Below are positions 1,821 to 26,458 of a stretch of DNA of 64,000 nt, piece after piece; position 1 is the first letter of the stretch; the number at the start of each line of letters is the position of its first letter. The translations under genes and the position numbers were made by a program. Source of the stretch: Pelagibius marinus (GTDB taxonomy: Bacteria; Pseudomonadota; Alphaproteobacteria; Kiloniellales; Kiloniellaceae); contig NZ_JACSDK010000015.1 of NCBI RefSeq assembly GCF_014925385.1, forward strand, positions 1 to 64,000, in the 5' to 3' direction. The notes under the pieces were generated by a model. The model had not been told where the DNA came from. It saw only the letters and a list, made by a program, of their open reading frames with translations, and ran no database searches.

Positions 1821-2972
1821 GTGCGATTGGCAAAATGTATCAAGGATATTCCTGCCGCAAATTTGGAAATGCCACCGGTGTCTAATTTAATCTCGCTTTT
1901 GAAGAAGTGCGAAATTAAGGCGATAGATGAATTTACCGATGCTGCAAGAGGGCGGCACCCGGCATGGACGGCGCTACATGCACATGAACCTCACGTAGAC
2001 TACGAGCGCTCCCCGAAAGACTACCTCGTCAACGAGGCTGTGGCGCTGATTTGGGGCAAAGATGGAGGCCATCACTGGCTCCAGGCCGCTAAGAAAAGGA
2101 TCGCTCAAACCGCAAATTTCGAGGAATGCGCTTCAGCACTGGCCGAAATTCGTTGCTACGGCGCCATGCTAGAGGCCGGATTCAGCATCCATCCTATACC
2201 AGCGAAAAGCACGCCGACCCCTGATTTTCAGTACGACATTCACGGATACACCGGTGCGGTCGAAGTCGCGACAAAGTTGGAGCACACAGACCAGGTTGAT
2301 AGGGCGAGGAAGATCGCGGCTGGCGCTACCCCCGATGGCGTTGAGCGATCGACATTCTTAGCGCCCTCTGGGAAGATCGAGTTGACCGTTAACGAGATGC
2401 ACCCGTTCGGTGCGCCCGACCCGAACAAAGCAGGCGATACAGCCCAAACCAATGCGATCAGCCGGATATGCGCGATCAAGGGTAAAGAAACTCAAACCGT
2501 CGAAGGCCAACCCAGCATCCTATGGATTGACTGCCGCGATCTCGGAAAGTGGCCGGGATTTCTCACTGTTGAGCACACATCTCCGATTATCAGCGGCCAT
2601 GCTGGTGCACTTACCTCAGGGCTGTTCTGGTATGGCTTCTACGGCTGGAAAGACGCTCCGGTTCTCGAAGGGCACAGTTCGGATTTCAATTCAATTACGC
2701 CGATGGGGCACGATGGGCGGTTTCATTCGGACGCACAAACGAGTAGCCGGTATTCCGCGGCCGTCATTTGTCTTCAGAAGGCAACAGTACTGTATGAGAA
2801 TCCGGCGGCACCAGAACGCTTGCCGAATGCGATGCGACGAGCTTTTACGCGGCTTCCGTCGTTTGACATTTCTCACAGCGTTGCCGACTGGAAGAGCGGC
2901 GATGTGCAGCGGAGTATCGAACTCGCACGGTCAATGATTGAAGCCCTGTCGACCAGTCCTGCGGACGACTGA
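1821..2972 (+). CDS. Hypothetical nuclease-like protein (possible PD-(D/E)XK fold)
   Basis: A 383-residue soluble protein. Residues about 100–152 hold a pattern resembling restriction-endonuclease-like folds: a helix with Glu109 (ALAEIRCYGAMLEAGF), then TPDF with Asp135, then a strand ending VEVATK with Glu148 and Lys152. In a canonical site the Lys sits two residues after the acidic residue; here it is four after, so catalysis is uncertain. The GTG start at 1821 directly follows AAGAGG; a TTG at 1827 has better spacing. It precedes the large STAND NTPase by 437 bp on the same strand and may belong to the same defence cluster. Family not recognised with certainty. Confidence 0.55.
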   Translation: MRLAKCIKDIPAANLEMPPVSNLISLLKKCEIKAIDEFTDAARGRHPAWTALHAHEPHVDYERSPKDYLVNEAVALIWGKDGGHHWLQAAKKRIAQTANFEECASALAEIRCYGAMLEAGFSIHPIPAKSTPTPDFQYDIHGYTGAVEVATKLEHTDQVDRARKIAAGATPDGVERSTFLAPSGKIELTVNEMHPFGAPDPNKAGDTAQTNAISRICAIKGKETQTVEGQPSILWIDCRDLGKWPGFLTVEHTSPIISGHAGALTSGLFWYGFYGWKDAPVLEGHSSDFNSITPMGHDGRFHSDAQTSSRYSAAVICLQKATVLYENPAAPERLPNAMRRAFTRLPSFDISHSVADWKSGDVQRSIELARSMIEALSTSPADD

Positions 2973-3409
2973 TACCTTGCAGCTTATTCGCACGACTCAC
3001 ATGGCGCGTCCGACGTCGCCGGCCCAGGACTCCAGACATACTAAGGTATTCCGCCGGAAGGGAGAGTTGCTCAAACCCGATACGCTATCGAAGGCTGCAT
3101 TAAGCCTGCTCAGTCCCAACAATGCTTTTGATCTCGAGGCCAAGTTCAGCAGGAGTAGTTGATCGGGACGTAGTCTGTCGGACATGCCAACTGTCTAGTT
3201 TCGTAGGTGAGCGCCTATTCTAAACAATGCATTAGGTCGTGTTCTCTCATAAACCTGACGCATGGGAATATGTACATTTTCTGACCGAACTACAGCCAGT
3301 AGATCGCTGGCCCTTCCCTCACCAGCACCCGTGCTACCGCAACTATGGGTGAAAATTAAAGCGCGTGCTGGTATCGAATTGCTGCTGTTTCCAGTATTGT
3401 CGATTCGCT
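2973..3409. other. Intergenic stretch upstream of the STAND NTPase
   Basis: 437 bp with no convincing gene. A 53-codon open frame on the plus strand (3001–3162, starting MARPTSPAQD) has no recognisable similarity and no clear ribosome binding site. The downstream part is AT-richer and probably contains the promoter of the 3410–8014 gene. I could not place a −35/−10 pair with confidence. Confidence 0.35.
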
Positions 3410-6400
3410 ATGTCCTCCTCGACAACAACTCATCTGGCGGCTCTGCGGAAAGCCCTTCTTGCACTCCGACCTACAGGAGATGCGGGATTTGAAGGGATGC
3501 TCGCTTTAGTCTTGTCTGAAGTCTGCGGCCAGCCATTCCGCCTTGCCTCTGGTGGATCGCAACGAGGTCGTGATGGCGATTCTGCATTCGACGATGGTGC
3601 AACTCTTTTTGAGGGAAAGCGCTACGAGAAGTCTGTGCCGAAACGGGAAATCGCTGACAAGCTAATGGATCTAAAGGTCGACAACCAAGGCCAAGTCGAT
3701 CTTTGGGTGATGGGCGCTACGGCCCCAGTTCCAGCTCTAGACGCCAAGGATTTCCGGTCTCTAGCAGAAAATGAAGGCATTGGAATTGTCCTTCTGGACT
3801 GGGCCGATGCGACAACGCTGCCGCCTCTCGCGCTAGCAGTAGCGATGGCGGGGCAGGCGGCAAAGCAATTTCTGCATGATAACCTAGCTAGCTTGGTAAA
3901 TGAGTCCGACTTACAAGCGGCCCTCGACGCGATCGACCTCATAGCAGCACTTCCGAACTTTGGAACGTTCGCAGAAAATCTGCAGGCTGAACTTAGGAAA
4001 CCGTCCACTGGCTTGGGGCTCGCCAAAGCGGCGAGTCACGACTGGCTATGGTCGGTATTTTCGAACCAAAGACTCGCGCGGCAGCATTTTGGTCAGCCTC
4101 TTGCCCCCAGAGATCCAGGTGGCATATGCGATTATCCAAGAGGAAGCTTGATCAAAGAGCTTCAGCCTGCATTCACTGGTTCACCCTCTACCAGTATCTT
4201 TGCGGTCATTGGCACCGAAGGTGCTGGCAAATCATGGTTGGTCGCTGACACGTGGCTTAGCACGACTCCTGCCTCACTTCTGGTTCTAGCGACAGCGGGC
4301 GAGCTTCAAGATCCGGAGGATATACTCGAGCCAGAGAAATTTCTCATTCGAAAGCTAATTCATCAGACGAGTAGCATCTTTGATGAAGCAAGCGAAAAAC
4401 GGTGGCGCCGCCGCTTTGCGGCATGGTGCGCCAATCCCAATCCTGAAAACATCCGCATCACTTTGTGCGTCGATGGCCTCAATCAGTCTCCTAAGTTTCC
4501 ATGGCCGCGCTTTATTGATGCGGCCTCGCTTCTACTGGATAAGCTTGGAGGGCAGCTCGTAGTCACTACGCGCATCACACACTTCCCGACGATACGAAGG
4601 GCAACTGCGCCCGCAATAAAACGTGTGACCGTTCCGGAGTGGACGAAGGCAGAGTTGGAAGAGATCCTTCGAAAGCGCGGCGTCGATCCCGATGTGCTGA
4701 GCGAAGACGTCTTCAGCACGCTAAAGAATCCGCGAATTCTCGGAATCGCTGTCAAATTGCTCGATGCTCGCGAGATCGAAAGGATGGAGGATCTCAGTGT
4801 GGGGCGGCTTCTGTTCGAACATTTAAGGCAGTCCAACGTCACAGGGGCTTCAGTAATTTCTCCGGAGGAGTTCGCGAAAGCCTTGCAGGAAATGGCTGCG
4901 GAGCTTGTGGAGCGTTTAAAATCGCATGACAAAGATGATCTCAGGCTCTTTGATGCGAGGCTCCATGAAAGGCTTTCAGACGTTGCCTCTAGTCTCTTCT
5001 TTAAGCCTGTCGGCGACGACCCTGATCGAAATGAGATTGTAGAAGAAGGGCTGCAAATCGCACTGGGTCTTTGGCTTGTCGAGGCTCTCGAGAAGGAAGA
5101 GCGAAATAATCGCGATCCGTCGGCCCAGCTCGAAGCGATTCTAGAACCCGTTACCCCACTCGATATGACTGCTGAAGTGGTGGCATCCGCAGCCGAGATA
5201 GCGTGTTTGCGCGATCCTTGTCCAGTGTTGGTCGCCGCTAGTCTTATAGGCCACTACGCCAACATGCAAAATGCATCGGAGGTGAGCCTTGCGTCAATTG
5301 GCGCATTGGTGAAAAAAAAGCCGGAGGCTTTCATTCGAGCCGTTAAGGATGCCTCTCTTGCCCAAGAGCATGTTGATCGCTTGGAGTGGCTCACTAGTGT
5401 TATTCTTGCTGCGCGAGATGATGCAAGCGTGCAAGGTGTTCTTTCCCGTGAGTTAGCTGAGTGGCTTTCGTACTACTCTCTTGCACCAGAGCGGATGTTG
5501 GGGGGTGTTCCAGTGAGCGGTTCGGCAGAGCAAATTGAGGCCGAGCGCCAGAAGGCGACAAAGCGGCTCGAAAAAAAAATGGAAAATCTGACTAAGGGGG
5601 AACGCAGCTATATTGAGAAGCACCTAATCCGTCATGACGATGGGGATCTGGATCACCTCCATAGGCAAGCGCTCTTTCTGCTTGCCGGGATGCCCCTGGC
5701 GCCGTTCGCTCCATCTCTGTTCGCGTGGGCCTTCGCAGATGCACTAAATACATCACTTTATGCGCCAAATCAGGAGTTCGGTTGGCTCATTCAGTCTAAT
5801 AATCTTGACTGGGAGGCGACCCGGACAGCCTTGCTTGAAGTCGTGGAGACATTTTCAGTGTCCAGGTCGGAGGTGGGCGATTGGGCAGTAGTAGCCATAC
5901 TCCATGGCACTGGAAATGAAGTCGATGCGGCCAGAGGCCACGAATTGTTCGAGCATCTTACGAGGGACCGAGAGAAGATAGGTTCTTGGCGTTTAGTCGA
6001 AACATACTGTGCGACAGATCCATGCGATCCAGCTGCCGTGCGACCAGAGAATATCGATCAGACTGCAAAGAGATTTCGAGAGATTGACGTGGATAAGTTG
6101 TGTCTCTCGCTGGGGGCATCGACCGAGGATCACTTCTTTCAAGCGGCCATGCCTGGAATGGCCCGCTTTGCGCCAGAGGTTGGGGCAAACACAATACGGC
6201 GTTTTGCAGCACAGACGTTGCAAAGGGAGGGATTACAGCGGAGGCAGGCAGTGTTGAGCCTTCTGCGGCATAGCATTCTTCTGGATAGAGCTACGATAGA
6301 TGCCTTTGTCTTGGCAGCAATATCCTTTAAGGCTGGCGCCTCGGGAGAAAAGAATGAGATCGCGCGCGATGATTGGATTGTATCGCAGTACTCGCTGCTA

Positions 6401-8014
6401 TTTGCACTTCCCCATCTTTCCGGCGATGAGCAGTTTCGCGCGCTGGCCGACAAGAGAACAGGCAATACTCTTCTAAAAATCGTAGCTTCGCTTAAACCGG
6501 CCGATGGCGCGTTGGTCGAATCGCTTTTAGAGCAGGCGGTAGCTGAAGGCAATGATGAAAAGATTGCCCGTATCCTGGCAGCTGTCGAATACACGAATTG
6601 CCTTCTGACACAGCGTGCAAGAGAAATTGTTGTCGAGCTTTTGTGTTCAGAGACTGGCAGCGTTCGGGCGCCGGCACTCGGAATTGCAGCGAGCACTGAG
6701 GACCCAACATTATTGCGGGCTGTTGTTGATAGTGGCTGGGACGCTGGTCGTCTGGTGCCGGAGAGTGATCACTTCGAGGTCTGGTATGGGTCAGCGGCGC
6801 TGGTTGCTGCGGTCGACGTCGGACTAATAGAACTTCCCGACGCACTGGATCGAATGGCATTGAGTCACTATGGGTTTACTGCTGCACGACTTGGCGTTGG
6901 CAGGGCGAACCTGGTAGCAGATAGGATTGAGTTGGCTCTTGCGAAGGTCATGAGGCTGCCAGAGCTTTCCGATTTGCCGGGAATGGAGCGCGATGCTCCG
7001 TCCGGTCCTACTTCGTCGCCACCTCTAGTCGGCGTGCGGGACGAAGCAATGCCGACAGACCCACAAGCAGTTTTTGAAAGAATGGCGGAGTCCGACGAGC
7101 AATTCGAGGAGCGACAGCAGCGCCTTCGTCAAGCGTATAGTCGCTTCAGTAAGGATCTTACCAATGCCGACGCTCGTCTTGTTCTGGAAGATCTGACATT
7201 TGATGGGCTTGAGGTAGTCGTAGCTTCCAGACCAGATGTTGTTGAGCGGTGGTGTTCCTGGCTCTTGTGCGCGGATGACTCAAAGAAGAGAGGCCTCTGC
7301 CGGTTCGCGGTACAGTTTGCAAGCGCTATCGCGAAGGACAATACTAAAGAAGCTATTGAGCTATTTCGTGCCTACGCCAAGGTCGATCCACTCGTGCGGC
7401 ACGTAACCGGGCTAGCAAAGATTCCAGCGGAAATAGAGGCGTTATGGCGCCATGCGGATATTCCTGAAATCGCCGCCGAATGTGTAAATCGGCTTGATCA
7501 AGCCAGTACCGATCGCGAATTGGCCCTCGAGGTCGTGGCTGCATTCCGTGCGGGTCAGGCTGCAATTGTTGAAAGCCATATAAAGAATCTCATTGCTACG
7601 GGGAGGCCAGCATCGATTGCCCGCGGAATTGCAGTCGCGGGCTTCTGCGATCAGTCCGAGTTTGCCGACCAGATATTACTTAGATATAGGACATCTAGCG
7701 GATTCATTGGTGCAGCCCATCGCGCTGCCAGGCGTGCATATGATCGAAATGTGTGGTCACGCCACTGGTGGGAGAAGATGGGGGCCGCAACCGATCGGCT
7801 CGATTTCTGGCGCTACTCAGTTCTTCTAACGAAGATAGTCGATGTGCGATTTGAACTATGGGCAGGTGAGGTGGCGGACGATACGCTACTCAGCACCTTT
7901 TACGTGACCATAGAGGACGGGATAAAGAAACGCATCAAGAGATGGAGCGACAAGCGTCGCGACCAGCTATTTGGCAGAAAGGCACCTCCAAGCATTTTTG
8001 TGTCACGGAGTTGA
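3410..8014 (+). CDS. Avs-like STAND NTPase with N-terminal nuclease domain
   Basis: A 1,534-residue protein. I chose the ATG at 3410 because homology-like sequence begins there; the frame is open 45 bp further upstream. Residues about 20–75 look like an Mrr-type nuclease: GDAGFEGML, then RDGD (Asp55/Asp57), then FEGKRY (Glu68, Lys70), a D…E-x-K site. The NTPase follows: Walker A GTEGAGKS near residue 268 and Walker B ITLCVDG with Asp355, then a helical winged region. The remaining ~1,000 residues are helical and repetitive with no catalytic motif, as expected for a sensor. Nuclease–STAND–helical-repeat order and length match antiviral Avs proteins, where a phage protein bound by the C-terminus triggers oligomerisation and nuclease attack on DNA. 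Target and subtype cannot be read from sequence; closest by architecture to Mrr-type Avs4. Confidence 0.75.
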   Translation: MSSSTTTHLAALRKALLALRPTGDAGFEGMLALVLSEVCGQPFRLASGGSQRGRDGDSAFDDGATLFEGKRYEKSVPKREIADKLMDLKVDNQGQVDLWVMGATAPVPALDAKDFRSLAENEGIGIVLLDWADATTLPPLALAVAMAGQAAKQFLHDNLASLVNESDLQAALDAIDLIAALPNFGTFAENLQAELRKPSTGLGLAKAASHDWLWSVFSNQRLARQHFGQPLAPRDPGGICDYPRGSLIKELQPAFTGSPSTSIFAVIGTEGAGKSWLVADTWLSTTPASLLVLATAGELQDPEDILEPEKFLIRKLIHQTSSIFDEASEKRWRRRFAAWCANPNPENIRITLCVDGLNQSPKFPWPRFIDAASLLLDKLGGQLVVTTRITHFPTIRRATAPAIKRVTVPEWTKAELEEILRKRGVDPDVLSEDVFSTLKNPRILGIAVKLLDAREIERMEDLSVGRLLFEHLRQSNVTGASVISPEEFAKALQEMAAELVERLKSHDKDDLRLFDARLHERLSDVASSLFFKPVGDDPDRNEIVEEGLQIALGLWLVEALEKEERNNRDPSAQLEAILEPVTPLDMTAEVVASAAEIACLRDPCPVLVAASLIGHYANMQNASEVSLASIGALVKKKPEAFIRAVKDASLAQEHVDRLEWLTSVILAARDDASVQGVLSRELAEWLSYYSLAPERMLGGVPVSGSAEQIEAERQKATKRLEKKMENLTKGERSYIEKHLIRHDDGDLDHLHRQALFLLAGMPLAPFAPSLFAWAFADALNTSLYAPNQEFGWLIQSNNLDWEATRTALLEVVETFSVSRSEVGDWAVVAILHGTGNEVDAARGHELFEHLTRDREKIGSWRLVETYCATDPCDPAAVRPENIDQTAKRFREIDVDKLCLSLGASTEDHFFQAAMPGMARFAPEVGANTIRRFAAQTLQREGLQRRQAVLSLLRHSILLDRATIDAFVLAAISFKAGASGEKNEIARDDWIVSQYSLLFALPHLSGDEQFRALADKRTGNTLLKIVASLKPADGALVESLLEQAVAEGNDEKIARILAAVEYTNCLLTQRAREIVVELLCSETGSVRAPALGIAASTEDPTLLRAVVDSGWDAGRLVPESDHFEVWYGSAALVAAVDVGLIELPDALDRMALSHYGFTAARLGVGRANLVADRIELALAKVMRLPELSDLPGMERDAPSGPTSSPPLVGVRDEAMPTDPQAVFERMAESDEQFEERQQRLRQAYSRFSKDLTNADARLVLEDLTFDGLEVVVASRPDVVERWCSWLLCADDSKKRGLCRFAVQFASAIAKDNTKEAIELFRAYAKVDPLVRHVTGLAKIPAEIEALWRHADIPEIAAECVNRLDQASTDRELALEVVAAFRAGQAAIVESHIKNLIATGRPASIARGIAVAGFCDQSEFADQILLRYRTSSGFIGAAHRAARRAYDRNVWSRHWWEKMGAATDRLDFWRYSVLLTKIVDVRFELWAGEVADDTLLSTFYVTIEDGIKKRIKRWSDKRRDQLFGRKAPPSIFVSRS

Positions 8015-8435: not shown

Positions 8436-8729
8436 GTGGCAGTGCCAGACCTACAGGTCATCTGCGTGAACAAGTCCGACCGAATGAACCCGTACGAGCG
8501 AATTCTCCGGATCGGCGACGGGCAGACAATATTGGGATCGTGGCGCAAGACACAGGAAGAAGTAATTCGGGAAATTGAGGCAGGGGTGAACAGGTTCTAC
8601 GTACAGGTGAACAGACAATCCGTTTGGGTCGAAATTGCCGTCAGCCAGCATGGCAATAGGTACCTAAAGACAGAGCCTGGTGGGGAGCAGCCGAATAACC
8701 TGTTGAGCCTTCCGGAGTGCCGGGCCTGA
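8436..8729 (+). CDS. DUF3892 domain protein
   Basis: A 97-residue protein from a GTG start, with AGGAAGGGAG just upstream. It has the DUF3892 pattern: an initial ICVNKSDR.NPYERI strand, a GxW/WRKTQEEVIREIE helix, a FYVQVNRQSVWVEIAVS strand pair, and the terminal motif YLKTE..GEQPNNLLSLPEC. The family is small, widespread, found often on mobile elements, and of unknown function. The C-terminal motif is complete, so the gene seems intact. The next features are a tRNA on the opposite strand and a rightward terminator at 8976, which would end this transcript. Confidence 0.8.
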   Translation: MAVPDLQVICVNKSDRMNPYERILRIGDGQTILGSWRKTQEEVIREIEAGVNRFYVQVNRQSVWVEIAVSQHGNRYLKTEPGGEQPNNLLSLPECRA

Positions 8730-8959: not shown

Positions 8960-8975
8960 TACCGCTTCTGAAAGG

Positions 8976-9010
8976 GCCCGCTGCTGACGCCTCAGCAGCG
9001 GGCTTTTTTG
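8976..9010 (+). terminator. Strong rho-independent terminator
   Basis: Perfect 12-bp stem (GCCCGCTGCTGA / TCAGCAGCGGGC) with a CGCC loop, followed by six T on the plus strand. It would stop rightward transcription coming from the DUF3892 gene before the toxin–antitoxin cassette. It lies just 5' of the minus-strand tRNA. Confidence 0.9.
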
Positions 9011-9053
9011 CCAGATTTTAAGATTATAGCAATTTTGCGATGGTAGATCAACC

Positions 9054-9464
9054 TTGACCGATAGCAATAATGCTATACCTTCTTGGACATTCCGCACCTA
9101 TGCGTCTCGAAGCGGGCGCTGCGAAGTTGAAGAGTGGTACGATTCGCTCACGCCAAAGGCGCAGGCTAAGGTCTTGGTTCGCCTGGAGTATCTGGCACAA
9201 CAGCCGCGGAGCGGTTGGCAACGCCCCCATTTTGCGCCGCTGCATGGAGAATGCAGTGGCCTCTACGAGGTGCGGTGCAAAGTCGAGAAGGTCGAGGTCA
9301 GATTGATCGGCAATTTCGGACCGAACAGACAGGACTTTACGTTGCTGCTCGTTGCTGAAGAACGCGGCGGCAAGTTTCGGCCGCCAAGCAGTTGTTCAAC
9401 AGCACAGGATCGTTGGAAGGAATTGAAAATAGAACCGGAGCGAGCCCATGAGTGGAAACCTTAG
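9054..9464 (+). CDS. RelE/HigB-like toxin (phage Gp49-like)
   Basis: A 136-residue protein of the RelE/HigB superfamily, mRNA interferases that cleave transcripts at the ribosome. Seen: RSGRCEVEEWYDSLTPKAQAKVLVRLEYL (helical hairpin), HFAPLHGECSGLYEVRCK and a VRLIGNF strand, the usual 'gLyElR…RLi' pattern. The start is uncertain: the TTG at 9054 overlaps a possible promoter, and the family core begins near WTFRTY (9081). The 3' end overlaps the antitoxin ATG by 17 bp, a typical coupled arrangement in the toxin-first HigBA order. A TATAGCAA/ATGCTATA repeat around 9026–9078 could be the autoregulatory operator. Confidence 0.75.
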   Translation: MTDSNNAIPSWTFRTYASRSGRCEVEEWYDSLTPKAQAKVLVRLEYLAQQPRSGWQRPHFAPLHGECSGLYEVRCKVEKVEVRLIGNFGPNRQDFTLLLVAEERGGKFRPPSSCSTAQDRWKELKIEPERAHEWKP

Positions 9465-10095
9465 GCAGTCGCTGGTTGAGAAACTGCGCGACAAAGCGTT
9501 TCGGCATGAATACATGGCCGAACACATCAGAACTGGCATCGCCTACCAAATACGCGCGCTACGGGACAAGCGTGGATGGTCGCAGCAGGAGATGGGGCGG
9601 CATCTGAAGAAGCCACAGAGTGTGGTTTCACGTTTGGAAGACCCAGACTATGGGCGCGTTAGTCTTCAGACGCTCATTGAAGTAGCCGACGTATTTGACG
9701 TGGGAGTCTTGGTGCGCTTTGTCGGTTACAGGGAGTTGTTGGAGAGAACCAGTGACCTTTCACCGGCCGCGTTGCTCGCACCAAGCTTTGATGAAGAAGA
9801 AAGTGCGCCTGTTACGTACAAAGCTGTTCAGGGTACTTCGGCGGCATCGGAAGGGGCACGGTCTGGAACAGAGCAATCGACATGGTCCCGCAATACTCTG
9901 TATTCACTGACTCTCGATGACCCAGAACGGCGCAGGCAAGGTCAGGCAACAATTACTCAATCGGAGCGAGAGCGAAACGCTTTGAGTCTGCAGAGAGGCT
10001 CATCCGCAATTCAAACAGATTCCATTGTTGGTTCCGCTAATCGCTTCCCTACGCTCACCCGTGCAGGATACCTTTTGGACCATGCGACTCATTAA
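9448..10095 (+). CDS. XRE-family antitoxin with long C-terminal extension
   Basis: A 215-residue protein. Residues about 30–95 form a helix-turn-helix of the Cro/C1 (XRE) type (ALRDKRGWSQQEMGRHL … SVVSRLED … LQTLIEVADVFDVGVLVRFV), the fold of HigA-like antitoxins. These bind the toxin and repress their own promoter. From about residue 115 there is an unusual ~100-residue polar, low-complexity extension that such antitoxins normally lack. It overlaps the toxin gene upstream by 17 bp and the third gene downstream by 14 bp, so all three are probably translated together. The extension may contact the third protein. Confidence 0.75.
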   Translation: MSGNLRQSLVEKLRDKAFRHEYMAEHIRTGIAYQIRALRDKRGWSQQEMGRHLKKPQSVVSRLEDPDYGRVSLQTLIEVADVFDVGVLVRFVGYRELLERTSDLSPAALLAPSFDEEESAPVTYKAVQGTSAASEGARSGTEQSTWSRNTLYSLTLDDPERRRQGQATITQSERERNALSLQRGSSAIQTDSIVGSANRFPTLTRAGYLLDHATH

Positions 10096-10771
10096 TGCTG
10101 AGAATGGACGCGTCTTGTCGTTGTTCTCGCAGGACGACATCCAGCCACAGATGGGCTACCATCTGCCGGATATCGTTGAAGGAATTGTGGCTCGATATCT
10201 CTTTGCTTCATTCCCCGAGGACAAGAGACTATCTGGGGACTCCCAGGAAGGACCACTCAGGTTCAAAACCGGAAGATTTGTCCATAGCAATACTCCGATA
10301 TATATCCATCTGATGGATGTCTATCGAGATGGTGTTGTTGTCGAGGCCACTTCCACCGACTACGCAGAGATTGTTGCTGACGATCTTTTGTCCTGGGCGG
10401 AGGAGCAATTCGGATTCAGGTTTTCTGAAGCGTCAATGCGAAGAGTGTATACGAGCTCGGTAGTTGTTGAGTTCGATCTTGATGTCAACTATTCCCTTGC
10501 AGCATTTGAACAGGTCAGTGCCGCTTATACGGCTGCTATGCGACGGTTCCGCGCAATAGACGAAACCGTGAACGTGACGAAAATTCAGCTGGGCGTTGAC
10601 CCCACTCGTCTGACATCGCGACAGTTGGGTGCTGATTTTATCATCGAACGGCGGGTCAATTGTCCACACGATAGCAATAGGTTCTTCTGCGACGCACCGC
10701 TTCCAACCCTAGACCATGTTGAGCTTTTGAAGACATTCGAGGCACTCTTGAAGACCGGACGCGGGTCGTAG
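10082..10771 (+). CDS. Third gene of the toxin–antitoxin cassette, unknown
   Basis: A 229-residue protein. I placed the start at ATG 10082 (MRLINAENGRVLSLFSQDD), which overlaps the antitoxin stop by 14 bp. It has no signal peptide, membrane segment or catalytic motif I recognise. It looks like a mixed α/β protein: DVYRDGVVVEATSTDYAEIVADDLLSWAEEQFGF is a clear strand–helix unit, followed by VVVEFDLDVNYS and a second long helix. It is not obviously the SecB-like chaperone of known three-part TAC systems. Tight overlap implies a function tied to the toxin or antitoxin, such as a chaperone, a sensor or a phage-triggered partner. No name can be given. Confidence 0.6.
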   Translation: MRLINAENGRVLSLFSQDDIQPQMGYHLPDIVEGIVARYLFASFPEDKRLSGDSQEGPLRFKTGRFVHSNTPIYIHLMDVYRDGVVVEATSTDYAEIVADDLLSWAEEQFGFRFSEASMRRVYTSSVVVEFDLDVNYSLAAFEQVSAAYTAAMRRFRAIDETVNVTKIQLGVDPTRLTSRQLGADFIIERRVNCPHDSNRFFCDAPLPTLDHVELLKTFEALLKTGRGS

Positions 10772-10962: not shown

Positions 10963-11481
10963 TCAATAGCTTGCTTTGCCTATAATCTTGTTCTCCCGCC
11001 TCCGTGCCTGCCGCCATCCGTCTCGCAGTTTTGCAGCCAGCACTTCCTTGTCGCCGAAGGCTTCCTCATTCGTGATTCTGATGAGCGTGATGTCAAAACG
11101 CGCGCAGTCCTCGTCCTTCTGGCGGTCGCGCACCATCTGTTCGGGTTTCCGGTGAATAGATCCGTCAATTTCGACGGCCAGCCTGATCTTCGGGAAAAAG
11201 AAGTCCAGTATCCACTTTCCGGATGCCACGTGTTGGGACTTGAACTCCCCTTTCAGGACACCGCCGCCCAACTCTAGGAGAAACTGTTCGAATGCCGCTT
11301 CCGCGGGCGTGGGATTGGCACGTTGATGCCTCGCATGCGCAATGATGTAGCTTTCGGAGTACTCATGCTCGTCGACAGCCGCCACCTGGCCCACCGGACT
11401 AGGAGTGACGCCATCACGTCCCTTGCGCTGTCGCCGCCGACCGGTGCGCCTTCTGGAAGTTCCACGTCTTGGATTACGCAT
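10963..11481 (-). CDS. DUF559 family endonuclease-like protein
   Basis: A 172-residue protein from ATG 11481 (a TTG at 11502 would add seven residues). After a basic N-terminus rich in Arg, the DUF559 core is visible: ARHQRANPTPAEAAFE, then WILDFFFPKIRLAVEIDGSIH, RDRQKDE and a final TLIRITNEEAF. DUF559 proteins share the Vsr-like PD-(D/E)XK fold; the Asp of 'LDFFFP' and the acidic residues of 'VEIDGSIH' match the usual metal site. Members are common as solitary genes on mobile elements and may nick or cleave DNA. The basic leader is longer than usual and could bind DNA. It faces the toxin–antitoxin cassette convergently. Confidence 0.8.
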   Translation of the reverse strand: MRNPRRGTSRRRTGRRRQRKGRDGVTPSPVGQVAAVDEHEYSESYIIAHARHQRANPTPAEAAFEQFLLELGGGVLKGEFKSQHVASGKWILDFFFPKIRLAVEIDGSIHRKPEQMVRDRQKDEDCARFDITLIRITNEEAFGDKEVLAAKLRDGWRQARRRENKIIGKASY

Positions 11482-11502
11482 AGTCAGTACAGTTTGAATC
11501 AA

Positions 11503-12090
11503 ATTTCAGCGGGTCGAGTACGCGAGATTCCATCAAACATGGCTGACGTTGCCCCTACGTTAACGCTGTGAATGCAATCGTAATCCCTGATCGTAGGCGG
11601 GCGCGTCCTCCTTCGTTGCAGGCTACGCATGACTGGGCTCTCGTAAACCGGATCTCTGCATGGCCTTTGGCGATGCAGAGGTCCGGCCGTCCGGCTTCGA
11701 TCCCTCGCGCGTAGATTCTGGCAAGGCCCAATATTGACGGCTGCGCGAGGGCGTCCTCGGTCCCGCTGCGCTCGTTCCTCGCTACGCTCCTGCGGGGCCG
11801 CCAGGAACCTCGCTCCTCCGATCGCCGCTTCCCGCCGCTCAGAGCGCGGCTCCTGGCAGGCTTCTCAGTTTTTTTGGTATGACGGCTTGGCCGCGCTCCT
11901 CGGGCCGAGCCAGGGCCTTTGCAAGGCGAACCACCTTGCGGCGGTAGATGTCGGCAATTTCTGGGTTGAAGTCGGGGGAGTGGGTGGAGCAGGCGAAGCG
12001 GTTCTGGCCGCGAATGGTGTAGATTGTGAAAATTTGGGAAGCTATCCTCCTTCTGTCGTCGGCGACAGCACTCCCTCGAGGTACAGTCTC
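11503..12090. other. Decayed stretch before the SIR2–KAP gene
   Basis: 588 bp without an intact gene. It contains the recombinase remnant described at 11839–12020 and a GC-rich, low-information stretch (about 11,735–11,870). The immediate promoter of the SIR2–KAP gene is probably within 12,020–12,080; a GAGG ribosome binding site lies nine bases before its ATG. No clear −35/−10 was found. Confidence 0.4.
11839..12020 (-). pseudogene. C-terminal fragment of a large serine recombinase
   Basis: The minus-strand frame reads QNRFACSTHSPDFNPEI then ADIYRRKVVRLAKAL and PEERGQA. The 'NPEIADIYRRKV.RL..AL..PE' pattern is typical of the C-terminal helical region of large serine recombinases (resolvase/integrase family). 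The expected end (…RGLI.RIVL) is lost after it, so the fragment is decayed. Together with 15650–15916 on the same strand and in the right order, it looks like one recombinase gene cut by the SIR2–KAP gene. Confidence 0.55.
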
Positions 12091-15000
12091 ATGGCAAGCG
12101 AGCACAGCGATCTCAGAAGCCTAGTCGGACGGACCCACGAAGGCCGCCTCATCCCCGTTCTGGGGTCGGGTGTCGGTGTGGTGGCGGGACTTCCTAGTTC
12201 TCGTGAAATCACACAATTACTTGCCGAGGAGATAGGGATCGCCGACGAAGACCGCGCCATCGATCTTTCGACAGTTTCCGAGATGTTTGTGGCGAGGACC
12301 AGCAAGCAAGCGCTGGAGCGCAGGCTGGCAGAAATATTCTCCGGGCCTCGACGACCCACACCGATTCACCAGCACCTAGCCCGGCTATCGGGCGTTCAGA
12401 TATTCATCTCGACTGGGTACGACGATCTTCTTGAAAGGGCGCTGGACGCGGAAGGCAGACAGTACGAAACCATTAGCTTCCAAGAGAGTGAAGAACTCGA
12501 GGCCGTTTATGTTTCCGTAAAAGGGGAGCGTCATGTCCTGCGCAGGAATGACCCGGAGCTAAGTAAGCTTGAGCCGTTCACGCCTTTGGTGATCAGATTG
12601 TTCGGGGGAGGGGTATCACGATCGTACGAGCCACGCTTCGTCGTGACTGAAAGCGAACTAGTTCATCTGGCGAAGTCGCTGCCCGAGATCATCCCAAGCC
12701 ATGTTCTCGCTCGCATCAGGACATCATCCCTTCTGTTCCTCGGCTTATCGGCGACCGGAATGGCTACTCAGATGACTCTGAGCTCACTGCTCAGAGATCG
12801 CGCGACCTCAAGCCCAACGAGTTGGGCTGTCCTTCCGCTTAGTGATGTGGCGAGCAACGAGGTCTTCACGCGATTCGGGGTGACAGTTATCGAGGGCGAA
12901 TTGTCTAATGTAGTCGACTCTCTATCGCAGCAGGTAGAGTTCTCGAGGGCCTCTGCAGAAAGCCGCCGGCGGGACAGGCAAGCAACAAGTAACAGTGATT
13001 CCACAGAGGAAGAGCCGGAAACACAGTCTGACGTGGACCGCGCACGCCCGATATCAGTTGCGGATGTCGTGGCTGCAGCAGCAGGAATTGACGCGGATAT
13101 TACGACAGATGGCGAAGGCCTACTGGCGGCGGCAGTCGCACTTCTTCCACAGAAGAGGGCGGAGAACGATGTCCTGTCCACTTCCACCCTGTTCCTCGCG
13201 GCAGTCGAATGGGGGCTGGGTCGGGCTGGTGTCCGAGAGCCGCCTAAGCCCCTAGCTAGTCTGGCTCACGCGCTCGTCTCGTCGAGGGAAGGACCTTACG
13301 ACGAACTCCGCACCGAATTCTTTCAGACAAATCCCCCGACTATAAAGCTTGAGATTGGAGGAGAGGAAATTCCATCCTTTGATCTTTCAAGCAACTTCAA
13401 ACAAGCGTATCGAGACGCTGCTGCTGAAGGATCCGTCACCGCGACCGCACTGGTGCGGTCCTTGCTCCGCCACGCTGCGTCTCCTGCTTACACCGGTACC
13501 TGGTTTCGAGATCGGCTTGAGAAACTCGAAGTATCACCGTCCCTACTGGAGATGACTCTTCTTCCCGGCGCCTCCACCCATGCAGCTAGCGATCTGTGGA
13601 CCGTCGATGACAAGCTCGGCTATGCTGAATACGCAAGAGCTATCTTCCATTTCTTGAGGGATCCGCGGACGCATCCACCGCTAACTATCTCAATTCAAGC
13701 GCCATGGGGCGGCGGCAAGACCTCGCTGATGCGGATGATTCAGCGCGAGTTGGATCCTGTAGGCTATGCGCGTGCCCAACCCAGCTCGCTACCAGCGAGC
13801 GCGCCTGCAAAAGGCGCCTCAGCGGAGACGCTCCTTGATGAGCTCCGGGAAATGGCGAATGGTAGGGCCAGTGAGATACGGATGAACTTGGGCGAGGGAG
13901 GCACATTTCCGACTATCTGGTTTAACGCGTGGACCTACCAGAGCGGCAACCAGTTCTGGGCTGGTCTTGGGGAGGCGATCGTTCGTGGGCTGACCATGCG
14001 GCTTGATCCTGTCCAGCGTGAGAAGTTCCTCTTGCGACTGCACCTCGCTCGCGTTGATCCGCATGCCATTCGTCGAAAGGTCTACGCGGCAGCAGCTCAG
14101 CACTTCCTCAATTTCCTGCGTAGTGGCCTCAAGTGGGTGTTAGCCATCGTCGTACTTCTTACGGCGGCTATAATTGCCGGTATTGGTTTAGCATACGATC
14201 TTAGTCAGGAGCTCCTCGGCTGGACCGTCTCGGGTTCGGCACTCGCTGGTTTGGGAACCGCTCTTGTGGGGTATGCCAGAGCACTGTTCAAGGCCAAAGC
14301 CGAGCCGGCGCAGTTCAGCCTTTCCGACTTCCTTGACATTCCCAACTATTCGGGTGAGCAAGGCTTTGTACATCAAGTGAACGATGACCTACGCCGAATC
14401 TTAGACATCCTACCCTTTGTCGAGGGGGCCGATGGTGAGCCTCTCCGCGTCCCCATCGTGCTGTTCATCGATGACCTGGATCGATGCTCACCAGTTAAAG
14501 TCGCCGAGGTTTTTGAGGCGATAAATCTCTTCATCGCAGGCGAGTTCCCGAATTGCTACGTTGTTCTAGGCATGGACTCAGAGATTGTGGCCGCAGCTTT
14601 GGAGGAGGCCCACAAGGAGGTTGTTGCTCGCCTGCCGGCCTATAGTCGGCAGACGGCGGTAGGCTGGCGTTATATGGACAAATTCGTCCAATTGCCGTTT
14701 GTTATTCCTCCGATCGATCCGGAAGCCGTCAAACTCTATGCGGTCCACCTGGCCGCCCGAGAGAACTTGGCAGCGAACCAGGCCCAAGTCCGAGCAGCGG
14801 CACTCGATCGTCGAAGTCTTGAGGACTCGATTGCCGAAATTCAGCACGAGGTCGAGGAGGATGAGCAAGTCGCACAGCGACTCGCAGAGAAGCATGGGCT
14901 CGAGGGCCAAGTTGGCGAGGCCCTGGCTCGAGAGATCATGGAACGGGACCAGCGGCTGGAGTTCATCGACGCGCGTGCGGAACTTTTGAGCCAGGACAGC

Positions 15001-15510
15001 AGTGAGATTGAGGCATTGCTGCAACAGGCCCATGCTGAGTTCTCCAATAACCCGAGAGAGCTCAAACGCTTAGTAAACGTGTATCGGTTCTACATGAATC
15101 TACGCTTGGCGCGCGAGTCGCGTGGCCAATCAATCCCGACCATTGAGCAGACTCGAAATTGGGTAATGATGATGCTGGCTTGGCCGGAGTTCTATCGATG
15201 GATTCGGCGCAGCCATACGGAATGGGAAGCTGAAGCAAGTGACTTGGAGGCTGCAGAGACCGGGCGACTTCTTAAAGAGTTGGAAGATCTGGCCATCAAG
15301 CCAATCGAAAAGTTGAACGGGACGAACGAGAAGTCAGAGATGGTTGAGCCAACTTTGGAGGACTGGACGAGCGGGCTAGAAAGCCGAAGCGGTCTTTCCA
15401 AGGAGACCCCTTGGTTATCGGACGAACGCCTCTTCCGCTTCTTTCAGCGTGTCGCGAATGCGGGACACGAGGCCTCGTTGGCGGCAGGAGCAGGAAAGGG
15501 CTTCTGGTAG
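12091..15510 (+). CDS. SIR2-like–KAP P-loop NTPase fusion, candidate defence protein
   Basis: A 1,139-residue protein (ATG at 12091, GAGG ribosome site). Residues about 18–290 are SIR2-like: LIPVLGSGVG..AGLPS (25–36), FISTGYDDLLERAL (~105–118) and VIRLFGGGV…VVTESEL (~168–190). Active SIR2 NADases have Asn in 'TNYD' and His in 'LHG'; here they are Gly109 and Phe171, so NAD hydrolysis is doubtful. A helical Clp-N-like region (~330–500) follows. Then a KAP NTPase: Walker A APWGGGKTS (537–545), two membrane helices (~680–735) inside the domain, Walker B VLFIDDLDRC (Asp794), then a coiled coil (~910–960). KAP NTPases are membrane-bound and include the phage-exclusion protein PifA. I infer a single-gene antiphage system with membrane action; no described system with exactly this architecture comes to mind. 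Confidence 0.8.
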   Translation: MASEHSDLRSLVGRTHEGRLIPVLGSGVGVVAGLPSSREITQLLAEEIGIADEDRAIDLSTVSEMFVARTSKQALERRLAEIFSGPRRPTPIHQHLARLSGVQIFISTGYDDLLERALDAEGRQYETISFQESEELEAVYVSVKGERHVLRRNDPELSKLEPFTPLVIRLFGGGVSRSYEPRFVVTESELVHLAKSLPEIIPSHVLARIRTSSLLFLGLSATGMATQMTLSSLLRDRATSSPTSWAVLPLSDVASNEVFTRFGVTVIEGELSNVVDSLSQQVEFSRASAESRRRDRQATSNSDSTEEEPETQSDVDRARPISVADVVAAAAGIDADITTDGEGLLAAAVALLPQKRAENDVLSTSTLFLAAVEWGLGRAGVREPPKPLASLAHALVSSREGPYDELRTEFFQTNPPTIKLEIGGEEIPSFDLSSNFKQAYRDAAAEGSVTATALVRSLLRHAASPAYTGTWFRDRLEKLEVSPSLLEMTLLPGASTHAASDLWTVDDKLGYAEYARAIFHFLRDPRTHPPLTISIQAPWGGGKTSLMRMIQRELDPVGYARAQPSSLPASAPAKGASAETLLDELREMANGRASEIRMNLGEGGTFPTIWFNAWTYQSGNQFWAGLGEAIVRGLTMRLDPVQREKFLLRLHLARVDPHAIRRKVYAAAAQHFLNFLRSGLKWVLAIVVLLTAAIIAGIGLAYDLSQELLGWTVSGSALAGLGTALVGYARALFKAKAEPAQFSLSDFLDIPNYSGEQGFVHQVNDDLRRILDILPFVEGADGEPLRVPIVLFIDDLDRCSPVKVAEVFEAINLFIAGEFPNCYVVLGMDSEIVAAALEEAHKEVVARLPAYSRQTAVGWRYMDKFVQLPFVIPPIDPEAVKLYAVHLAARENLAANQAQVRAAALDRRSLEDSIAEIQHEVEEDEQVAQRLAEKHGLEGQVGEALAREIMERDQRLEFIDARAELLSQDSSEIEALLQQAHAEFSNNPRELKRLVNVYRFYMNLRLARESRGQSIPTIEQTRNWVMMMLAWPEFYRWIRRSHTEWEAEASDLEAAETGRLLKELEDLAIKPIEKLNGTNEKSEMVEPTLEDWTSGLESRSGLSKETPWLSDERLFRFFQRVANAGHEASLAAGAGKGFW

Positions 15511-20034: not shown

Positions 20035-21789
20035 ATGCGCATCCGACACATCGAAATCAAAAATTTTCGCGGCATCCAATCCCTCTGCTGGGCTCCAGGG
20101 CAGAGTATGAATTGTTTGATTGGACCGGGCGACTCAACGAAAACGACGGTGCTTGATGCTATCGAGCTCGCCTTAAATCCGCGCAGTTACTTCCTTGGCG
20201 ATGACGCCGACTTCCACAATCTCGATGTGGAACAGCCCGTCAAAATCACGCTTACAATGGGTGATCTTCCGGTCGAATTCCTCGCGGAAAACAAATACGG
20301 GCTTCACCTGCGCGGCTGGGATGCGGCTGCGGAACAATTGCACGACGAACCGGACGGCACGCTTGAAGAAGTGCTCTCGCTCAGGGTCACGATCGATAAA
20401 TCACTCGAGGCCCGGTGGTCGCTTTTCAATGAGCGCATCGCGCAGGCCGAAGGCGATCCACCGATGATCCGCTACAAGGACATGCAGACGCTTGCCACAT
20501 CGCGGCTCGGCCCCTATGCAAAACGCCATCTGGGCTGGGGTCGCCAATCCGTCTTAAGCCAGATCGAAGAGTCCGGTGAAAGCGTCAATCTCAGGCTGGC
20601 GGAGGCCGGCCGCGCGGCGCGCTCGGCATTCAAGGAGAGCGGCACGGACGTATTCAGCGCGACGGTCGAAAAGGTGCAAAAGCTCAGCGCTGATTTTTCC
20701 GTTCCGGTGAGAGACAAGTACAAGGCTGAACTCGACGTACAATCCGTCAGCGTCAGTACTGGCGGCATCGCGTTGCACGACGGCGCGCTGCCGCTGCGCC
20801 GGCTGGGAACCGGCTCCTCACGGCTCCTGGTGTCTGCCCTCCAGCACGAAGCCGCGAGCAGCTCCCACGTTGCGCTGATCGACGAAGTTGAACACGGGCT
20901 CGAGCCTCACCGCATCGCAAGGCTTCTCAAATTTCTGAAGGGCAAGAAGACGACGCCCTCCGGCGACGTGCGCTCACAGATATTCCTGACCACCCATTCC
21001 CCGGTGGTCGTTCGTGAACTTGATGCTGGCGATATTTTCACCGTCCGCGAGACGGGCGGCGATGTAGGCGTGCGCTCCGCCGCTTCGACCCCGGAGAACG
21101 CAAAGAAAATCCAGGCCCATCTGCGCGTCTCTCCTGAAGCCTTTCTCGCAAGACGCGTGCTTGTCGGCGAAGGGCGGACAGAAGCAGGTTTGCTCCGCGG
21201 GCTTGATAGCTGGTGGACTGATAACGGCAAGCCGTCATGCGCTTATCAGGGCGCGGTTATCATTCACGGCGACGGCAAAGATTCGGGTCCCGATATCGCT
21301 GAGTCTCTGCTTGACCTCGGCTATCAAGCCGCCTTGCTGCTCGATTCGGACGAAGCCCCAAATCCGCAAACTCTTGACCGTGTGCGCTCCAAAGGCGGCA
21401 AGATCGTCCAATGGGAAGGAGACGTTTCCACCGAGGGCCGGTTGTTTGCCGATCTCAAATGGGAAGCCGTGCGCGAGGTCATGGACTACCTCACCAGCGA
21501 ACTCGGTGAAGACGCGATCCGCGCCCACATCAACAACGTTCTGGCCGAATCGCAATCTCCACCTCTTGGCGATCTCACCTTTCCGGCAGCACTGGACACC
21601 AAGGCTTTCCGGCAAACGCTCGCGGCAGCCGCTGTCGCCAAGAAAGGACAAAAGCGCGCCTCGTGGATTAAAGACTTGGGACGCGCCGAAGCCATCGGGT
21701 ACATGATTGGCGCCGACCTCGGCGCGACCGCCGGCACACCATTTGCCGCCGGCATAACCAAGCTCCGGCAGTGGATCGATGGCGGATGA
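20035..21789 (+). CDS. gajA: Gabija GajA, OLD-family ATP-dependent endonuclease
   Basis: A 584-residue protein, close to the ~578 residues of the Bacillus GajA. The N-terminal ABC/SMC-type ATPase is clear: MRIRHIEIKNFRGIQ, a P-loop variant GPGDSTKTT (~residues 30–38, Thr where the second Gly is usual), signature-like RRLGTGSSRLL, Walker B VALIDEVEHGL and TTHSPVV. The Toprim nuclease follows: LVGEGRTEAGLL with the catalytic Glu near 380, and LLLDSDEAPN as the DxD. GajA nicks/cleaves DNA when nucleotide pools fall during phage infection. The gene overlaps gajB by 11 bp, the standard Gabija layout. Confidence 0.92.
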   Translation: MRIRHIEIKNFRGIQSLCWAPGQSMNCLIGPGDSTKTTVLDAIELALNPRSYFLGDDADFHNLDVEQPVKITLTMGDLPVEFLAENKYGLHLRGWDAAAEQLHDEPDGTLEEVLSLRVTIDKSLEARWSLFNERIAQAEGDPPMIRYKDMQTLATSRLGPYAKRHLGWGRQSVLSQIEESGESVNLRLAEAGRAARSAFKESGTDVFSATVEKVQKLSADFSVPVRDKYKAELDVQSVSVSTGGIALHDGALPLRRLGTGSSRLLVSALQHEAASSSHVALIDEVEHGLEPHRIARLLKFLKGKKTTPSGDVRSQIFLTTHSPVVVRELDAGDIFTVRETGGDVGVRSAASTPENAKKIQAHLRVSPEAFLARRVLVGEGRTEAGLLRGLDSWWTDNGKPSCAYQGAVIIHGDGKDSGPDIAESLLDLGYQAALLLDSDEAPNPQTLDRVRSKGGKIVQWEGDVSTEGRLFADLKWEAVREVMDYLTSELGEDAIRAHINNVLAESQSPPLGDLTFPAALDTKAFRQTLAAAAVAKKGQKRASWIKDLGRAEAIGYMIGADLGATAGTPFAAGITKLRQWIDGG

Positions 21790-23652: not shown

Positions 23653-24741
23653 TCAACTTGGCTGAATGCCACCATAGCGTCTTAGTCCAGCTCCCGACAT
23701 AGTGTCTATAAACCTGGGCCTTTGCCTTATCCGAAGTTTCGGAAGATGCCGCGGAACAATCGGGGGGACACTTTCGACGTGGATCAGGCCACCCTTCGTC
23801 GAAGCGGCAAACTCTTCATCTGTAGCGACTGAAAACCTTTTGCTTCCTTCGAATTTTTGTTCTTCGTCCTCAACTGCAATATTTACTCGCAGGGTGCTCT
23901 CAGGCTTTGAGTTTTCCACTTCCTTTAGCGCTTCGACGGTTTGCGTTGTATCTCCATAAGGCGATAGAACGACTACGTCGTTGCTGAACAGATAAACAAG
24001 TTGGTTCAAAGCGATGGCGTCTTTTTCCTTAAGCTTGCATGTCATACCTTCTCGACCATTCAACTCATAGACATGGCGATCGAACGCGAAAAAGCCTAGC
24101 TTGGGCGTCAATGGCAGATAAACATACAAGCCTGCACCACCAAGCCCCCAGTTTCGGTACTTCATGTACCTTTTCAACACTAGTTTGTTTGATGAAACAG
24201 CTGGGTTATCAGACATCACAAAGCCAGTCTTGGATTTGTTGACTAGCAGAACACACCGAAGGTCTGAAATGGTGTCAAAGAAAACCCTTGCACTGTCTAA
24301 GACCATTTCCATTGCTTCCGGACCCTCCATAGGCGGGCCGAGGAAGTCTTCGAGTTCGTCATTTTCTTTTTGCCCTAAAGCAACCTTCTCACGCATAGAG
24401 GACATCATCAGCAACCGGTCCTTTATCGCCTTTTCGGCTCGCAGATGCTGTAAAAGCCAGAGAAACAACAGTTTATCGAGATCTTCTTTCGCCGGTGTTT
24501 GAGACTCAGTCAGCTTATTGACAACATCTCCGAACATCCCCTCAGGGGTATTGAAGAATTCCTCGATTCTTAAATCCTTGCCGTACAAATAGCTCTTTGA
24601 GCACTGATCTCTGATCGAAGCGCCAAAAACCAACTTATCAAGCTTTGGAATCCAGATGTTGACTTGCCGTTTTTGACTATCCGTAGAAAAATTTTTTAGA
24701 TGAACTTTCGGAACAAAATGTTGGTTTTTCTTTTCGGCCAT
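23653..24741 (-). CDS. DUF4238 domain protein
   Basis: A 362-residue protein with the DUF4238 opening motif NQHFVPKVHLKNFS at residues 6–19, a predicted strand IWIPKLDKLVFG, then CSKSYLYGKD, and a middle helical part (LDKLLFLWLLQHLRAEKAI). The segment FVMSDNPAVSSNK followed by YLPLTPKLGFFAFD is typical of the family. Function is unknown; DUF4238 genes are often found near restriction and other defence genes and on prophages. The basic C-terminus (KLRIRQRPRF) is longer than usual. It has lower GC than Gabija and so may have a separate origin. Convergent with gajB. Confidence 0.8.
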   Translation of the reverse strand: MAEKKNQHFVPKVHLKNFSTDSQKRQVNIWIPKLDKLVFGASIRDQCSKSYLYGKDLRIEEFFNTPEGMFGDVVNKLTESQTPAKEDLDKLLFLWLLQHLRAEKAIKDRLLMMSSMREKVALGQKENDELEDFLGPPMEGPEAMEMVLDSARVFFDTISDLRCVLLVNKSKTGFVMSDNPAVSSNKLVLKRYMKYRNWGLGGAGLYVYLPLTPKLGFFAFDRHVYELNGREGMTCKLKEKDAIALNQLVYLFSNDVVVLSPYGDTTQTVEALKEVENSKPESTLRVNIAVEDEEQKFEGSKRFSVATDEEFAASTKGGLIHVESVPPIVPRHLPKLRIRQRPRFIDTMSGAGLRRYGGIQPS

Positions 24742-26357: not shown

Positions 26358-26458
26358 ATTCTCCGCACTCCTTGCGGAGAATATGCCCTCCTTTCTCCGC
26401 ATCGGTCAAGGCTATTCTCCGCATGATATGCGGAGAAAACCAGGGTCAATCTCCGCAT
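26352..26458 (-). promoter_or_regulatory. Palindromic operators over the Fic promoter and start codon
   Basis: Five copies of TCTCCGCA (or its complement). One is a perfect 16-bp stem, GGGCATATTCTCCGCA at 26352–26367 with its complement at 26373–26388 and a 5-base loop; it includes the Fic start codon (26355–26357). Another is TTCTCCGCAT / ATGCGGAGAA at 26415–26424 and 26428–26437. Single half-sites lie at about 26,392 and 26,449. Likely binding sites for the winged-helix domain of the Fic protein, giving negative autoregulation. Confidence 0.75.

Follow-up and report, generated by a model that had tools for sequence, protein, structure and literature searches.

A three-gene Gp49–XRE toxin–antitoxin cassette of Pelagibius marinus with a non-SecB third protein: a possible TAC-like variant

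What does the third gene of a toxin–antitoxin (TA) cassette do when its product is not a recognisable SecB-like chaperone? This question is raised by positions 9054-10771 of a 64,000-nucleotide stretch of the Pelagibius marinus contig NZ_JACSDK010000015.1 (the window), where three same-strand open reading frames (ORFs) are chained by overlaps of 17 bp (9448-9464) and 14 bp (10082-10095). The toxin–antitoxin–chaperone (TAC) systems described so far have SecB-like third proteins. Our best explanation, to which we give a little less than an even chance, is that the cassette is a tripartite type II TA operon of TAC-like design, in which a non-SecB saddle protein, predicted to resemble the TATA-binding protein (TBP), would control toxin release via the antitoxin tail.

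A first-pass annotation of the window had described the cassette as a RelE/HigB-like toxin, an XRE antitoxin with an extra tail of about 100 residues and a third, unknown protein, and this description was borne out (Table 1). The ORF coordinates reproduce the three ORFs, their sizes and both overlaps, and because the three frames are kept as protein in distant loci, they are not a chance ORF chain. The antitoxin matches the helix-turn-helix (HTH) Pfam families HTH_37 (E 1.5e-7), HTH_3 and HTH_31, all above cut-off, and extends 101 residues past its conserved core. The window toxin scores E 7.2e-5 against Pfam Gp49 (PF05973), its 23.2 bits lying 0.7 bit below the curated cut-off of 23.9, which is exceeded by its relatives in loci L002 (36.4 bits), L029 (30.2 bits) and L022 (25.5 bits). 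Toxin identity across distant loci is 22-41%, and in an alignment with seven relatives W11, Y16, W55, E72, R83, P110 and R120 are invariant besides M1; judged by this alignment, the window toxin clearly belongs to the Gp49 family. A sequence search of the PDB gave no useful match for the toxin family. Where exactly the toxin starts is uncertain: the proposed TTG at 9054 sits in the promoter-operator region, overlapping a palindrome at 9061-9076, and the relatives begin nearer the WTFRTY motif. The third-gene frame is open upstream as far as a TTG at 10025.

Table 1. Features of the cassette and its surroundings (window coordinates) and of other loci (coordinates of the respective locus)
Feature	Position	Strand	Remarks
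Hairpin + T run	8971..9008	+	intrinsic-terminator-like, would insulate the cassette; arms 8971-8987 / 8992-9008, 17 nt, 88% complementary
Operator-like palindrome 1	9026..9041	.	ATAGCAATTTTGCGAT
Operator-like palindrome 2	9061..9076	.	ATAGCAATAATGCTAT; 35 bp from palindrome 1; overlaps proposed TTG start
Toxin gene, Gp49/HigB-like (RelE superfamily)	9054..9464	+	136 aa; TTG start, start codon uncertain
Antitoxin gene, XRE	9448..10095	+	215 aa; ATG start
Antitoxin conserved core, residues 1-114	9448..9789	+	XRE helix-turn-helix and following conserved segment; 13-row alignment
Antitoxin tail, residues 115-215 then stop	9790..10095	+	polar, unconserved; found in relatives having a third gene
Third gene	10082..10771	+	229 aa; ATG start; acidic, isoelectric point 5.1; predicted two-lobed TBP-like saddle
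Most conserved stretch of third protein, residues 186-220	10637..10741	+	FxIERR-N-NRFF-APLPT-H-LL-E motif
1549-residue protein	3365-8014	+	no meaningful Pfam or PADLOC match
DUF3892 protein	8436-8729	+	same island
DUF559 endonuclease-like protein	10963-11502	-	same island
Large protein, SIR2_2 + KAP NTPase domains	11734-15510	+	PADLOC partial matches ThsA, QatA, PDC-S20
Gabija pair GajA / GajB	20035-21789 / 21779-23254	+	PADLOC E 5.6e-201 / 5.7e-163; 11-bp overlap; complete
DUF4238 protein	23653-24741	-	same island
DUF4172-Fic (SoFic) protein	25251-26402	-	same island
Phage-type integrase	26909-28051	+	adjoins 3' end of tRNA-Phe
tRNA-Phe	28074-28149	-	beside integrase
Short third gene behind long-tailed XRE	L021 3036-3311		
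Short third gene behind long-tailed XRE	L017 1743-2030		
Short third gene behind long-tailed XRE	L025 825-1169		
Short third gene behind long-tailed XRE	L028 2986-3306		
Short third gene behind long-tailed XRE	L029 3024-3398		
Short third gene behind long-tailed XRE	L030 3034-3393		
Phage-like contig with portal gene and cassette	L006 536-2545 and 2798-4705		

The antitoxin tail goes together with a third gene, even if the third gene is of another kind. A viral-contig scan started from antitoxins like that of the window gave 10 loci, with a third gene of the window's TBP-like kind in three (L022, L023, L027), a short third gene in five and neither in two (L024, L026). Among the short ones, L021 encodes a DUF3467 protein (PF11950, E 1.8e-8) and L025, L028, L029 and L030 encode proteins without family; the Thiothrix plasmid pTunz2 (L017) has another short third gene, overlapping the antitoxin gene by 14 or 20 bp depending on the start. 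All 11 antitoxins having either kind of third gene (the window, L002, L008, L022, L023, L017, L021, L025, L028, L029 and L030) carry a tail of 54-124 residues past the core, whereas L024 and L026, without a third gene of either kind, end 18 and 20 residues past it. In seven chromosomal Gp49-HTH pairs without such a third gene, the antitoxin likewise stops no more than 26 residues beyond the HTH match (no more than 11 in six), and six of these seven antitoxins are about 95-99 residues long. A C-terminal extension is thus present in 11/11 cases with a third gene versus 0/9 without (Fisher p 6e-6, uncorrected for relatedness), a p value that is only indicative, given the relatedness of the loci and a slight difference between the two ways of measuring the tail. 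Too different to be aligned, the XRE proteins of L005, L006 and L003, with about 70-139 residues beyond the HTH, were not counted.

The seven control pairs came from a search with the HTH alignment A9, which returned the window only at E 1e-15 and mostly generic XRE proteins at 1e-7. From the latter search 29 loci were taken (L052-L080), 28 of them with an HTH ORF and seven with an upstream Gp49-like gene. Several of the other 21 HTH loci, which were not counted, have long C-terminal parts without such a third gene, and a long tail alone is therefore no predictor of one. A 206-aa ORF downstream in L052 was judged spurious from its composition, and L056 and L075 have Fic-like genes behind the XRE gene, which we take to be of the "mobile mystery" type.

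The tails themselves are not conserved. Core alignments reach z >= 27 for every pair among the 11 antitoxins, and 0 of the 55 pairs have similar tails, none exceeding z 5. Unconserved tails beside a conserved core have been reported for the ChAD tails of TAC antitoxins (PMC5105189), and the pattern was counted in favour of the TAC-like reading.

The short third proteins have 91-124 residues, and like the window's third gene theirs stand behind long-tailed XRE genes, in several cases preceded by a Gp49-like toxin. The stretch examined upstream in L024, L028 and L030 showed no toxin gene. The five non-DUF3467 proteins are loosely alike, and because L021 is not detectably like them the six were not treated as one family. 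No sequence relation between any of them and the window's third protein was detected, and their interpretation as homologues of a single TBP lobe was rejected for lack of detectable similarity. The association gives DUF3467-like proteins a possible function. Behind the short-tailed antitoxin of L026 lies yet another kind of third gene (2880-3122), encoding an 80-residue protein with a ALGRKGGKKGGPARAA stretch. Related TA pairs hence carry exchangeable third genes, as expected if tail and partner form a swappable module.

The window's kind of third protein was found in eight independent loci at about 25-34% identity. These are the window; L002 (the same as L012, from a Rhodospirillales metagenome-assembled genome (MAG), and as G006, of the same genus as the window); L003 (Bradyrhizobium plasmid NZ_CP100605); L004 with L005 (two contig ends of one genome, counted as one gene); L006 (the same as L013, Hyphomicrobiales MAG and viral contig); L008 (the same as L011 and L027); L022; and L023. 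The third gene lies directly 3' of an XRE gene in all eight and overlaps it by 1-14 bp in seven: by 14 bp in the window, 4 bp in L002, L008, L005, L022 and L023, and 1 bp in L006, the two genes abutting in L003. A small gene stands upstream of the XRE gene in seven of the eight, being Gp49-like in five (the window, L002, L022, L023 and weakly, at E 0.021, L008) and without Pfam assignment in L005 and L006. Frequent occurrence of the third gene apart from the pair, which the first-pass annotation had named as speaking against a three-part system, was not seen: the adjacent XRE gene is missing in 0/8 loci and the upstream toxin in 1/8 (L003). At this last locus (5337-6531), on a Bradyrhizobium conjugative plasmid, the antitoxin survives with a broken third gene, and a toxin gene is not seen, which makes one case of joint decay; the cassette remnant adjoins transposase and recombinase remnants.

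The regular association bears on the simplest alternative, namely that the third gene is passenger cargo without a role on a mobile TA pair. The existence of related pairs with a different third gene, or with none, would agree with a passenger. A passenger would not be expected to stay with XRE genes in 8/8 loci from different lineages, at protein identities of about 30% and with overlaps of 1-14 bp in seven, nor to co-occur with the tail, and this explanation therefore has only a slight chance of being right.

The third protein is rare. It was present in 2 of 98 genomes of relatives, 2 of 385 of the class, 2 of 61 of the order, 1 of 297 of the family of G688 and 3 of 398 of the phylum, one of these three being judged spurious; each count includes the window or an already known locus, and the samples overlap, so that the counts are not additive. 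A pattern-based scan of 84,980 species genomes, a method that misses divergent copies, gave two loci. The remaining loci came from viral-contig scans and plasmids, the plasmid scan yielding one record only. Phage records contained no match to the third proteins of the window or L006 or to the antitoxin of L022, and a second viral-contig scan with HTH segments gave no contigs beyond those already found. Two matches were set aside: L009 (G559; E 1.9e-4 in the phylum sample) was dropped as chance, its ORFs showing no cassette, and L020 (E 7e-7) was not used since it has internal stops.

As had been proposed, the third protein is without known family, giving no meaningful match in Pfam, NCBIfam, PADLOC or PHROGs, and it is not recognisable as SecB-like. 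No SecB Pfam match was obtained for the window copy or its relatives at E 1 and no profile similarity was found, so that a SecB homologue was rejected; the window genome's own SecB sits on another contig. A profile of seven third proteins found no match among PDB sequences at E 10. The fold was modelled with AlphaFold2. The model of the window protein (five rows, pLDDT 73.5, pTM 0.74) has two beta-alpha-beta3-alpha units. A second model with the L023 protein as query (seven rows, pLDDT 73.4) has nearly the same element order, but lacks a strand of the C-lobe near residue 165 and has two additional short helices. Both models are weak at about residues 160-184.

In VIA-align, where Z below 8 may reflect merely a common arrangement, TATA-binding proteins were the top matches of the window model (Z 9.2, root-mean-square deviation 4.6 Å, 159 residues aligned; next unrelated match Z 7.0) and of the L023 model (Z 8.1, 5.0 Å, 156 residues; next unrelated 6.9). 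Foldseek placed TBPs from rank 2 with E about 1e-3 for the window model, behind a McsA/McsB chain; for the L023 model no match was below 0.001, and TBP followed from rank 3 after aspartokinase regulatory domains at ranks 1-2. The Foldseek TM values for the TBP-like fold were about 0.4-0.5. SecB is absent among the structure matches listed for both models, which says nothing against a SecB fold. A tandem duplication visible in the sequence was rejected, the two halves of the protein not being alike (hhalign probability 0.2%). Because Foldseek was weaker and neither a sequence repeat nor a PDB sequence match was found, a two-lobed TBP-like saddle is kept as likely but not established. In the structural search proposed in the first-pass annotation, TATA-binding proteins were the best solved matches; the protein has no sequence link to SecB or TBP.

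A TBP-like saddle invites the question whether the third protein binds nucleic acid, as a regulator or sensor that recognises phage-derived duplex or tunes the promoter. The six full-length third proteins are all acidic (isoelectric point 4.9-5.7, net charge -5 to -10), unlike what a DNA-binding TBP would need. No TBP Pfam match was found in the window copy, L022 or L023, and DNA binding is already supplied by the XRE antitoxin. Besides the predicted saddle itself, it speaks for nucleic-acid binding that the bacterial TBP-like lobes of RNase HIII and the RnlA family are nucleic-acid binders or RNases (PMC7221094, PMC3710099). Taken together, a nucleic-acid-binding role is improbable.

Conservation within the third protein is highest in the C-terminal lobe. 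Residues 183-225 have a mean column identity of 0.61 versus 0.42-0.48 elsewhere, and F186, E189, F201, A205, P206, L216 and E220 are invariant in seven rows. This motif, together with the tight coupling to the TA pair in 8/8 loci, would suit a co-inhibitor or second antitoxin in direct contact with the toxin or the toxin–antitoxin complex, the tail then serving complex assembly. The charges point the same way: the third protein is acidic (six of six), and four of 10 examined toxin genes, among them that of the window, encode a basic toxin. That the tail tracks the third gene even when the latter is of an unrelated kind suggests a contact with the tail and not with the toxin, and a co-inhibitor is in our view unlikely. 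The same lobe holds a cluster of polar residues, E189, R191, N199, H212 and E220, and guanido-kinase sheets are among the next fold matches after TBP, as might be expected of a second effector or enzyme that is checked by the same antitoxin in a system with two toxic arms. No enzyme family was matched, however, and within the polar cluster invariance across the seven rows is limited to E189 and E220. The third gene is moreover always last and translationally coupled, which fits a protective rather than a toxic part, and in L003, which lacks the toxin gene, it is broken too, as expected of a part that has no work without a toxin (one case). A second effector is thus quite improbable.

In the TAC-like reading, the third protein would act through the tail. 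In the Mycobacterium tuberculosis TAC system, the C-terminal ChAD extension of the antitoxin imposes dependence on the SecB-like protein; ChAD regions differ from one TAC system to another, and the module of tail and partner can be grafted (PMC6377645, PMC5105189). CmdTAC is triggered when a phage capsid protein takes the chaperone (PMC11618068), and the same trigger has been reported for HigBAC with the lambda tail protein (PMC11980606). The window cassette shares with the TAC systems (M. tuberculosis HigB1-HigA1-SecB(TA), E. coli HigBAC and CmdTAC) a three-gene operon with a dedicated third protein, with their HigBA types a RelE-superfamily toxin upstream of an XRE antitoxin, and with their antitoxins an unconserved C-terminal extension and a modular tail and partner (PMC5105189, PMC6377645). 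It differs in that its third protein, a predicted TBP-like saddle of about 225 residues, has no SecB sequence similarity, and in its tail of 101 residues, whereas the ChAD region of M. tuberculosis HigA1 is removed by a 42-residue deletion (PMC6377645). Because the SecB feature was looked for and not found, the cassette is not filed as a TAC system proper; it is described here as a TAC-like variant whose third protein is new. The phage-defence reading suggested in the first-pass annotation is plausible, in that the third gene accompanies long-tailed antitoxins, the cassette lies in a defence island and a relative neighbours a phage portal gene; that annotation mentioned neither the predicted two-lobed saddle nor the other third genes of related TA pairs.

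In the mechanism that we propose, the Gp49/HigB-type toxin would be expected to cleave mRNA on the ribosome. The XRE antitoxin would repress the operon at the two palindromic operators and neutralise the toxin with its folded core, while its disordered tail would create dependence on the third protein. The acidic, two-lobed TBP-like saddle would bind the tail or shield the antitoxin. A competitor for the third protein or its removal, a phage product being the obvious candidate, would then lead to loss of the antitoxin, and the toxin would stop growth.

Several observations weigh against this mechanism. The third protein has no detectable sequence link to any chaperone, and its profile gave an hhalign probability of 0.06% against 15 SecB proteins taken from relatives and from the window's own genome. 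The tails in the set with this third gene are 19-27% aromatic and aliphatic; since they are not strongly hydrophobic, the aggregation-prone behaviour of a ChAD tail is not evident. The XRE proteins of L003, L005 and L006 can barely be aligned with that of the window, yet they have the third protein in common. Top conservation in one lobe, including polar residues, is also what an enzyme or a site for toxin binding would show, and the TBP fold match is moderate, at 4.6 Å over 159 residues in one model and with nothing at E 0.001 in Foldseek for the other. The loci are few (eight), and what support there is for a role of the cassette in phage defence comes from its neighbourhood.

A broader form of the TAC-like reading, which we regard as doubtful, is that a stand-alone two-lobed TBP-fold family serves as tail-reading gatekeeper, chaperone and phage sensor in one, of Gp49-XRE pairs, as one of several interchangeable gatekeepers (TBP-like, DUF3467, the other short family, SecB), all fitting antitoxin tails of one kind. 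If TBP-like saddles and DUF3467-type proteins fill the same place, gatekeeping of an antitoxin tail would be a general plug-in principle, and the range of phage-sensing third proteins would be wider than is now searched for. A two-lobed TBP saddle in bacteria would also be new, if the model holds, and would bear on the origin of the TBP saddle. Bacteria are reported to have single-lobe TBP relatives only, RNase HIII and RnlA being named as homologues without two-lobe sequences in PMC7221094. The RNase HIII N-domain and the RnlA toxin have a TBP-like lobe fold such as is predicted for the third protein, and RnlA is in addition tied to TA systems and phage defence (PMC7221094, PMC3710099). They are reported without the two-lobe pseudo-symmetric form (PMC7221094), whereas the third protein is a predicted stand-alone two-lobe saddle and is acidic; no sequence relation to their lobes was detected.

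On the side of the pair, the closest known systems are Tad-Ata and the Gp49-type HigBA pairs (COG4679/DUF891 + XRE), with the same toxin family, toxin-antitoxin order, XRE antitoxin and palindromic operators (PMC2701414). The window differs from them in its antitoxin of 215 residues, against about 95-99 in six of the seven ordinary pairs seen here, and in the third gene, none of these kinds being present in those pairs. No description of such a cassette was found in the open-access literature, few subscription papers or preprints being covered.

The two palindromes in the promoter form a putative autoregulatory operator. The motif has five strand-wise matches at <=2 mismatches in the window versus 0.23 expected, a number reached by 0/100 shuffles. 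When nine relatives were scored with the window sites alone, the best match of the locus fell in the toxin promoter in six (L002, L008, L021, L022, L023 and L029; not L005, L006 and L017), and was doubled at a distance of 43-45 bp in L008, L022 and L023. Since the control two-gene pairs L052 and L060 also bear a match, the operator is a trait of the TA class and not of the three-gene form. The hairpin upstream of the palindromes was not listed by a consensus terminator scan.

The cassette lies in a defence island with a complete Gabija pair (Table 1). From its domains, the protein encoded at 11734-15510 resembles a defence NTPase that has an NAD-acting domain. The 1549-residue protein, in which an N-terminal nuclease-like part and an NTPase-like core with helical repeats can be made out by eye, is a possible unnamed defence protein. 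A search for attachment sites found no second copy in the genome of the tRNA-Phe end beside the integrase; the window begins at a contig end. In L006, a Hyphomicrobiales phage-like contig, the cassette immediately follows a P22-like portal gene (E 4.6e-95). These island genes and the portal neighbour make a role in phage conflict plausible, and in the case of L006 a phage itself seems to carry this type of toxin–antitoxin system.

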